Shown piece by piece: positions 34,431 to 36,020 of a stretch of DNA of 64,000 nucleotides; within the stretch, counting starts at the first letter, position 1, and every line of letters begins with the position of its first letter. Source of the stretch: Halorubrum laminariae (GTDB taxonomy: Archaea; Halobacteriota; Halobacteria; Halobacteriales; Haloferacaceae). The DNA is taken from positions 372,001 through 436,000 of the forward strand of contig NZ_JANHDL010000003.1 in assembly GCF_024494655.1 (NCBI RefSeq). The letters run 5' to 3'. The notes under the pieces are model-generated. The model had not been told where the DNA came from. It did no database searches and saw only the letters and a program-made list of their open reading frames with translations. Made by a program: the position numbers and the translations under genes.

Positions 34431-34814
34431 ATGCCACAGATCGAACTCGGCGTGCCGAAGGGCGTCGTCGAGTCGCTGCCCGAAGAAGAGGGCACGGCCG
34501 AACGCGACATGCGTCGAGCGATAGCCGGCATTCAGTCGCGGCTGAACGAGGAGATCGAGGGAGACGACGCTGCCGAGGCGGCCGAGGTCGTCGCCGACGC
34601 CGTGGAGCGCATGGAACAGCAGGCGAGCACGTACCACGAGTTCGTTCCGGAACTGCGGGCGTGGGGGCAGTCGCCCATCTACGCGATCGCGTGGCGGAAC
34701 CTCTACGTCGAACTGATCGGCCAGCTGTACGACCACGACTGGCTCGGCGGCGACCTCGACCGCGAGCGGAACTTCCGGCTCGTCGAAGACGGGATTCGCC
34801 TGTCCGACCTGTAG
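34431..34814 (+). CDS. Conserved haloarchaeal hypothetical protein
   Basis: A 127-residue soluble, acidic protein predicted to be mostly helical. It contains ERDMRRAIAGIQSRLNEEIEG, AAEVVADAVERMEQQASTYHEF and WRNLYVELIGQLYDHDW. I recognise no enzyme motif. It is the first of a same-strand row (34431-36020) with a ubiquitin-like protein and two overlapping unknown genes; a 50-base gap with a TTTTTAAGCC box before the next gene suggests separate promoters. ATG at 34431 follows GGGTTTTTCACCG, a possible TATA region about 27 bases upstream. Confidence 0.75.
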   Translation: MPQIELGVPKGVVESLPEEEGTAERDMRRAIAGIQSRLNEEIEGDDAAEAAEVVADAVERMEQQASTYHEFVPELRAWGQSPIYAIAWRNLYVELIGQLYDHDWLGGDLDRERNFRLVEDGIRLSDL

Positions 34815-34864: not shown

Positions 34865-35146
34865 ATGGAACTTGAACTGCGGTTTTTCGCCACGTTTCGC
34901 GAGGCCGCCGGCGGGAAGACCGTCGAGGCGTCATTCGCCGACGGCTCGACCGTCGGCGACGTGTTGCGCGAGTTGGAAGACGAGTACGAGGGGATGGCGG
35001 GTCGACTGATCGTCGACGGCGATCTCGCTCCGCAGATCAACGTCCTGAAGAACGGACGAGAGGTGCTCCACCTCGACGGGCTCGACACGCCGCTGGCTGA
35101 CGGCGACCGGCTCTCCGTGTTCCCGCCGGTCGCGGGGGGAACATGA
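34865..35146 (+). CDS. Ubiquitin-like small archaeal modifier protein (SAMP/MoaD-like)
   Basis: A 93-residue beta-grasp protein. It begins MELELRFFATFREAAGG and ends VFPPVAGGT, strongly resembling archaeal SAMP proteins (closest by eye to the SAMP3 type) and MoaD. Their C-terminal Gly-Gly is adenylated by the E1-like UbaA and joined to target lysines or used for sulfur transfer. Here a Thr follows the Gly-Gly, so the diglycine is not terminal unless it is trimmed or tolerated. Its TGA overlaps the ATG of the next gene by four bases. A TTTTTAAGC box lies 27 bases upstream of the ATG. Confidence 0.88.
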   Translation: MELELRFFATFREAAGGKTVEASFADGSTVGDVLRELEDEYEGMAGRLIVDGDLAPQINVLKNGREVLHLDGLDTPLADGDRLSVFPPVAGGT

Positions 35147-35550
35147 CCGATTCGGCCGAGGAGGCCGAGGAGGCCGACGAGACGGGTGTCCCCGACGACA
35201 CCGTCGAGGCCGATGAGGCGGACGAGAGCAGCGGTCCGGGCGAGTCCGACGACCGTCCGCCGGCCGAACCGGGATGGGAGCGCAAGACGGTCGCGTACCG
35301 CGGCATCTCGCGGCGGCTCGCGGCCCACTACCTCGTCAACCTCGGCGGCGAACTCGTTGGTACGGACGACCCTGCGGACGCGACTCGGGTCGACGGGGAC
35401 GGGTGGCGCGCGACGCTGCGTGCGGACTCCGTGACCGCCGCGGGATCATTCAGTCTCACCGAGGTCACCGTCGAGTTCGCCGGCGACCCGACTGTCCTCG
35501 CGGAACTGCTCCCCAGGTACCGCCAGAAAGCGATGCGGGCTGGCGGATGA
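35143..35550 (+). CDS. Hypothetical protein coupled to the ubiquitin-like modifier
   Basis: A 135-residue protein. The first 45 residues are an acidic, disordered run of Glu, Asp and Ala. The rest is a compact basic domain: WERKTVAYRGISRRLAAHYLVNLGGELVG, then alternating strands WRATLRADSVTAAGSFSLTEVTVEF, ending LPRYRQKAMRAGG. The end again carries a Gly-Gly. It overlaps both neighbours by four bases (ATGA junctions), so it is made together with the modifier. The fold resembles a small MoaD-associated domain, but I cannot name it with confidence. Confidence 0.72.
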   Translation: MTDSAEEAEEADETGVPDDTVEADEADESSGPGESDDRPPAEPGWERKTVAYRGISRRLAAHYLVNLGGELVGTDDPADATRVDGDGWRATLRADSVTAAGSFSLTEVTVEFAGDPTVLAELLPRYRQKAMRAGG

Positions 35551-36020
35551 TGTCCAGAGACGATAGAGCAGAGCGGTCGGACGAGCCCGGGGATTCGGAC
35601 GTGGATGCGGATGGGGACACGGGCACGGGTGTAGACGGTGGTTCCTATCCCATCGAAGGGCCAGCGCTCGTCACGTCGGCTGCGCTGGCGAGCGTCCCCG
35701 CGTCGCGACTCCCCGAACTGCTCGGGCGGGTCCAAGCCGACCTCGGTCCGCGGATAGACGCGTATCGACGGCGATACGAGCGGATCGCCGCCGATCCGGA
35801 CCGCGAGGCGTTCCTCGTCGAGCCCGATCACTGGGAGACCGTCGCCGCGCGGTTAAATCTCACCGCCCGCGAGCGCGACGCCGTCGTTCGGGCGCACGAA
35901 GCTGCTGTCGTCCGCGTCGGCACGAGTAGTGCGAAAAGCGAGGAGTTCGAGACCGCCCTAGAGATCCGTTCCGGCGTCGTCATCGGGACCGATAAGGCGG
36001 ATCAGAGGGCGGATGAGTGA
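35547..36020 (+). CDS. Hypothetical protein, third gene of the modifier operon
   Basis: A 157-residue protein of unknown function starting at either ATG 35547 or ATG 35550; the first gives the four-base overlap seen at the previous junction. After 40 acidic residues comes a helical domain: LASVPASRLPELLGRVQADLGPRIDAYRRRYERI, EPDHWETVAARLNLTARERDAVVRAHEAAVVRVG and EEFETALEIRSGVVIGTD. The middle resembles a helix-turn-helix (AARLNLTARERDAV), but DNA binding is not certain. Cotranscribed with the ubiquitin-like protein. Confidence 0.7.
   Translation: MMSRDDRAERSDEPGDSDVDADGDTGTGVDGGSYPIEGPALVTSAALASVPASRLPELLGRVQADLGPRIDAYRRRYERIAADPDREAFLVEPDHWETVAARLNLTARERDAVVRAHEAAVVRVGTSSAKSEEFETALEIRSGVVIGTDKADQRADE

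Follow-up and report, generated by a model that had tools for sequence, protein, structure and literature searches.

SAMP3 and a TBP-like, diglycine-ended partner as a probable two-part unit of haloarchaea, encoded as one precursor or as two abutting genes

Based on comparison of one small gene cluster across the haloarchaea, we judge that, on balance, the ubiquitin-like modifier SAMP3 and an obligate partner, here called p2, probably constitute a two-part unit which is repeatedly encoded either as one precursor or as two abutting genes. At the level of sequence, the comparison demonstrates fused open reading frames (ORFs), recurrent change between fused and split states, joint presence or absence of the two proteins, and homology to a Thermus ThiS-DUF1952 protein. 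The features concerned lie as follows in the window, by which we mean the whole 64,000-nucleotide stretch of DNA that was analysed; sequence searches with its genome and related ones assign it to the genus with Halorubrum among its named representatives.

34431 to 34814, forward strand: 'up', a conserved small protein often found beside SAMP3 (tblastn neighbourhood map)
34865 to 35146, forward strand: SAMP3 ortholog, a ubiquitin-like (beta-grasp) modifier of 93 residues (ThiS, SAMP1-model and 2m19 matches)
35129 to 35140, forward strand: V-A-G-G motif, corresponding to the end by which published SAMP3 is conjugated (read from the sequence)
35141 to 35143, forward strand: extra Thr codon (tail) after the diglycine, variable within the genus
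35143 to 35550, forward strand: p2, a TBP-like-fold partner (arCOG06308-type) of 135 residues with an RAGG end (AlphaFold, foldseek, hhalign)
35536 to 35550, forward strand: C-terminal R-A-G-G of p2 and its stop codon (alignment; 141 of 142 SAMP3-linked sequences)
35550 to 36020, forward strand (start possibly 35547): p3, a small, mostly helical conserved protein with invariant W, R and H

The first ORF of the pair encodes a beta-grasp ThiS/MoaD domain that is nearer to the HVO_2177 type than to SAMP1: it matches Pfam ThiS with 67 bits (1.9e-18), and its best solved relative is 2m19 (E 1.2e-36), with the SAMP1 structure 3po0 trailing at 6e-11. These matches, the 107 bits obtained on the NCBIfam SAMP1 model (cut-off 60) and the C-terminus itself, ...FPPVAGG-T, bear out the original prediction of a SAMP/MoaD-like modifier ending in Gly-Gly-Thr, whose gene shares four bases with the next (ATGA, the start at 35143 falling inside 34865-35146). 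The diglycine is not at the extreme C-terminus of the encoded protein, being followed by Thr, and the label 'mature SAMP3' applies to the product only if this tail is removed; in published SAMP3 it is the C-terminal Gly that is joined to target lysines (PMC7305310). As a side observation, the NCBIfam SAMP1 equivalog model also passes SAMP3 proteins, far over its cut-off, so automated annotation likely labels the window gene SAMP1.

The second protein closes with the predicted KAMRAGG, as read in its ORF. In the AlphaFold model, residues 1-42 form an acidic linker of low confidence, followed by a core with pLDDT above 90 and b-a-b-b-b-a topology, and this predicted fold rules out p2 as a beta-grasp ubiquitin-like protein (Ubl). 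p2 thus combines a predicted TBP-like fold, a conserved C-terminal GG and an adjoining MoaD-like Ubl; its assignment to arCOG06308 follows the description in the relevant passages of PMC2948915, and it has no match in Pfam or NCBIfam. Alignment revealed invariant R53, G54, Y63, L64, W88, E107, K129, R132 and G135, with G134 kept in at least 90% of sequences, the exceptions being paralogs that end in RAPG. R-A/S-G-G followed directly by a stop closes 141 of the 142 distinct p2 sequences found with SAMP3, and the lone exception, in a metagenome-assembled genome (MAG), appears frameshifted. Whereas the residues after the SAMP3 diglycine vary freely, p2 stops exactly at GG. The RAPG paralogs occur in two genomes with no SAMP3 nearby (L052:3225-3569, reverse strand; L056:2860-3195, forward strand) and represent a natural control without GG. 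Separately, the p2 frame is broken or frameshifted beside SAMP3 in two MAGs (L061 of genome G025, and L127), possibly through sequencing errors.

A single ORF encodes SAMP3 and p2 in 37 distinct sequences, which come from several families; in it the SAMP3 frame runs through VAGG into a linker of about 8-59 residues, the p2 domain and a terminal RAGG-stop, with FPPVAGG invariant here too. Such stop-free ORFs are found in Halostella (Halostella pelagica), Halobaculum (Halobaculum gomorrense, Halobaculum saliterrae, Halobaculum litoreum), Halopenitus (Halopenitus malekzadehii, Halopenitus persicus), Haloglomus (Haloglomus halophilum, Haloglomus irregulare), Halospeciosus (Halospeciosus flavus), Halobellus (Halobellus captivus), one Natronomonas, several Halorubrum (Halorubrum alkaliphilum, Halorubrum trapanicum, Halorubrum cibi, Halorubrum aquaticum, Halorubrum halodurans, Halorubrum rubrum) and MAGs. 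An assembly or frameshift artefact was ruled out, since complete chromosomes as well as named strains, from several families, carry the fusions, and since the linker is similar to the acidic N-terminal part of p2 in split species.

Where the two coding regions are not fused, what divides them is a frameshift, an insertion or a stop codon in frame. Halorussus, Haladaptatus, Halomarina and most Natronomonas have one in-frame stop at the SAMP3/p2 junction, in most cases a TAG with an ATG directly behind it, while the window's group and Haloferax are frame-shifted there. On a tree of 141 rows (37 fused and 104 split, with loci L044 and L161 counted as frameshift-split), at least 15 changes between the fused and split states are required, the direction of change being left unassigned, and at least five of them are forced by strongly supported branches. 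How little separates the two states is apparent within Halorubrum, where a fused junction reads VAGG-A-G-D-D-G (L017) and a split one VAGG-A-stop, with p2 beginning M-S-D-D-G on an overlapping ATGA (L006). The comparison indicates that a small indel distinguishes them and that the window Thr sits where the linker starts. A further observation concerns stop-codon usage: TAG ends SAMP3 in 27 of 34 in-frame-split loci as against 5 of 34 p2 stops at the same loci, and GG-TAG-ATG is near-universal at in-frame split junctions (L037, L043, L051, L111, L117, L126-L133 and others). Amber read-through or a restart signal was considered as the cause; shared ancestry together with avoidance of the spurious ATG in GGA-TGA may account for the bias.

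An apparent dependence of SAMP3 on p2 shows in gene content as well. p2 is present in 291 of 392 haloarchaeal genomes and absent from 101, of which 20 were among the genomes listed and the remainder was obtained as the complement of the listed positives. In the 101 negatives, a joint SAMP3-p2 profile finds either nothing or, at best, a match no stronger than the SAMP1 paralog gives (E above 1e-25). Where it is listed, a lone SAMP3 domain reaches about 1e-45 to 1e-50 on this profile; SAMP3 was thus not found without p2 across the 392 genomes (291 with both, 101 with neither). Non-fused p2-positive genomes yield at least three profile matches, as expected for SAMP3, p2 and SAMP1. In a wider sample of 247 genomes of the phylum, all 32 that bear p2 belong to the haloarchaeal order.

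The arrangement nonetheless has a bacterial counterpart. The only significant foldseek match of the p2 model is Thermus thermophilus 1v8c (E 8e-4, probability 1.00), hhalign aligned the p2 family with the DUF1952 domain of that protein (E 5.6e-7, probability 92), and a phmmer search gave a full-length match between the fused haloarchaeal protein and 1v8c, spanning residues 6 to 179 (E 7e-14). Although neither p2, the fused protein nor the window's genome reaches the Pfam cut-off for DUF1952 (PF09189), these results argue that p2 is homologous to the DUF1952 domain of 1v8c and the fused form to the whole ThiS-DUF1952 chain, so that the family is not restricted to haloarchaea. The two share domain order, an internal VAGG and a glycine C-terminus, SRGGG in 1v8c; among the C-terminal invariants of p2, the Arg and GG are common to both and the Lys is not. 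The Thermus protein differs in being bacterial, in having almost no interdomain linker and in belonging to a Pfam model which p2 escapes.

The 1v8c crystals contained the uncleaved two-domain chain, so cleavage cannot be taken for granted in Thermus, which lends some weight to an explanation without processing: SAMP3 and p2 would act as a two-domain protein or tight complex, the internal VAGG being structural and the GG of p2 alone being active. In keeping with this, the GG of p2 is C-terminal in every architecture and that of SAMP3 is often internal or tailed. We regard this explanation as unlikely, however, because in Haloferax the C-terminal Gly of SAMP3 itself forms the isopeptide bond, and UbaA is required for this (PMC7305310, PMC4500146), and because FPPVAGG is preserved without exception within the fused forms.

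The tails themselves and the protease genes bear on whether the Thr could be removed. In split Halorubrum the residues after GG are T, A, S, V, RT, CEV, CEA, CET, GGT, GEP, DE or DD, and never none; Haloferax and Halobium SAMP3 have no tail. SAMP1 of the window's genome also carries one, VSGG-RSD (L060:2982-3263, forward strand, contig C39 of genome G000), as expected if a trimming activity exists; its ORF lies just upstream of a deoxyhypusine-synthase-like ORF. Variable residues behind an invariant GG are the pattern expected of a trimmed precursor. Free variation after the GG might also mark a protein that does not conjugate, but VAGG would then not be expected to remain constant. On another contig the window's genome encodes a candidate desampylase, which scores 151.9 bits on model NF041370 (cut-off 130), contains the JAMM motif (HSHPTGPTHPSETD in the ORF) and is convergent with a ThiF/UbaA-type (E1-type) ORF, one of two ThiF proteins in this genome. 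A desampylase was found in all 17 fused and all 9 split Halorubrum-type genomes tested. More broadly, it was detected in 34 of 40 p2-positive against 12 of 40 p2-negative genomes (Fisher p 1e-6, phylogeny ignored), the six p2-positive genomes without a match having been searched with a single-sequence query that may miss distant copies. For the Haloferax enzyme HvJAMM1, a cut placed exactly behind GG in a linear SAMP1-MoaE fusion is published, both in vitro and in vivo, and SAMP3-MoaE conjugates are likewise cleavable by it in Haloferax (PMC4443979); the literature searched offers no example of a JAMM protease removing just one residue. The suggestion that the residue after GG may need trimming is thus plausible from the desampylase gene, the freely varying tails and the tail of SAMP1. 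The further suggestion that a partner is the processing factor fared poorly, as p2 is TBP-like, neither p2 nor p3 has a recognised protease domain, and the likely processor is on the other contig.

Judged from sequence, the Thr is most likely a linker remnant trimmed by the desampylase. If SAMP3 and p2 form one unit, the Thr and the one- to three-residue tails of relatives would be the remainder of, or the precursor to, a linker at the split point. The desampylase (HvJAMM1 equivalog) would cut behind VAGG, which in fused species would set free the linker-p2 half and in split ones take the tail off SAMP3, and the trimmed SAMP3 would proceed to adenylation by the E1, UbaA. Equal output, by fusion or by overlapping genes, could then serve a SAMP3-p2 complex or relay. 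The C-terminal GG of p2, which the stop codon fixes and nothing extends, would have a function too, perhaps because an E1-type enzyme engages this terminus or because it acts as a docking tail; p3 would take part in some lineages only.

The same GG invites the idea that p2 is a second, structurally unrelated modifier, so that the unit would yield two tags, SAMP3 and the TBP-GG protein, each of which UbaA or the other ThiF protein would activate. RAGG is invariant and exposed, the genome carries two ThiF proteins, and the relevant passages of PMC2948915 suggest that TBP-like GG proteins, frequently fused to E1 enzymes, act as functional Ubl analogs. Nevertheless, the literature searched contains no p2 conjugate, the cluster is without an E1 gene and GG ends are known in non-modifier proteins, and we consider a second modifier distinctly unlikely. 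A similarly low probability attaches to a version in which one precursor would yield a SAMP3 tag and a TBP-fold RAGG tag, separated by the desampylase and both charged by E1; if true, this would be a prokaryotic two-modifier polyprotein combining a beta-grasp tag with a structurally unrelated one.

Ordinary operon coupling is very improbable as the explanation. On this view the overlap would do no more than keep expression in balance, and the Thr would be the sign of a SAMP3 that has lost conjugation in the genus. Gene overlaps are common in haloarchaea, and every split Halorubrum copy examined is tailed with none GG-ended. Yet FPPVAGG is invariant in tailed copies as well, fusion recurs and loss is strictly joint to a degree beyond usual operon behaviour, and 9 of 9 tail-bearing genomes tested retain the desampylase.

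In most descriptions, archaeal SAMPs end at the diglycine and need no maturation. Native fused precursors and post-GG tails would point to a maturation step comparable to that of eukaryotic ubiquitin and SUMO, give the desampylase a possible constitutive job and single out p2 as an uncharacterised protein on which SAMP3 apparently depends. Eukaryotic ubiquitin-ribosomal protein fusions likewise carry the modifier at the N-terminus of a precursor that is cut after GG; the likeness is an analogy, as the partner is unrelated, fused and split forms alternate in haloarchaea, and no common descent of the arrangement is implied. Ubl-MoaE (MoaD-MoaE) fusions resemble the present ones in placing the Ubl ahead of its partner via GG, after which HvJAMM1 cleaves there, and differ in that the haloarchaeal partner is TBP-like rather than MoaE and itself ends in GG. 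The Haloferax volcanii SAMP3 (HVO_2177) system has the same modifier family, VAGG end and E1-type and desampylase genes. Its SAMP3 ends exactly at GG without the Thr, and in the window, unlike in Haloferax, the partner overlaps the SAMP3 gene and is fused to it in congeners. The presence of fused, in-frame-split and frameshift-split species in one order provides a natural test series, with Haloferax as a ready model.

As to novelty, the system is known in outline, and the original view of it as the best candidate for an undescribed system does not hold: SAMP3 conjugation is published, and Makarova and Koonin (2010) listed the neighbourhood and the GG end, with a MoaD-like Ubl as neighbour of arCOG06308, a protein of TBP-like fold with GG at its C-terminus, in the relevant passages of PMC2948915. 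That cluster matches ours in its TBP-like C-terminal-GG protein, MoaD-like Ubl and two small unknown proteins, although the same passages call it unique to Halobacteria and we found a Thermus homolog; they contain no Ubl-TBP fused ORFs of the present kind, post-GG tails, Thermus homolog or joint loss. A survey of fusions in archaea, published in 2024, covers MoaD-MoaE and MoaD-MoeB, and the SAMP3-p2 fusion is absent from the main-text passages concerned. Judged against open-access main texts, novelty appears to lie in the fused form of the precursor, in the loss of both proteins together, in the homolog from a bacterium and in the maturation to which the tails point.

The proposal that the coupled genes work with the modifier is supported for p2 by its tight linkage, seen in co-occurrence in 392 genomes, repeated fusion and the terminal GG, and only partly for p3. 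The latter, which has no Pfam or NCBIfam match and gave none in a fold search against the PDB, is present in 32 of 40 p2-positive and 7 of 40 p2-negative genomes (missing from 8 of the former); it is linked to p2 statistically, phylogeny again ignored, but loosely, and obligate in neither direction. A second four-base overlap, between p2 and p3, would require p3 to begin with the ATG at 35547. Among relatives it is the counterpart of 35550 that is most often ATG, the other position usually being GTG or absent; the overlap is therefore likely a single base (TGATG), with p3 at 35550-36020. Upstream of SAMP3, the 'up' protein bears a ELRAWGQSPIYA-type motif and belongs to no Pfam or NCBIfam family. 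The order up, SAMP3, p2, p3 recurs across haloarchaeal families in the tblastn neighbourhood map, so the arrangement is not confined to a few species and the association spans the haloarchaeal order. In most Natrialbaceae examined, 1.2-2.9 kb with other genes, a transporter-like one among them at locus L169, intervene between SAMP3 and p2, and the gap between p2 and p3 stays at 10-18 bases.
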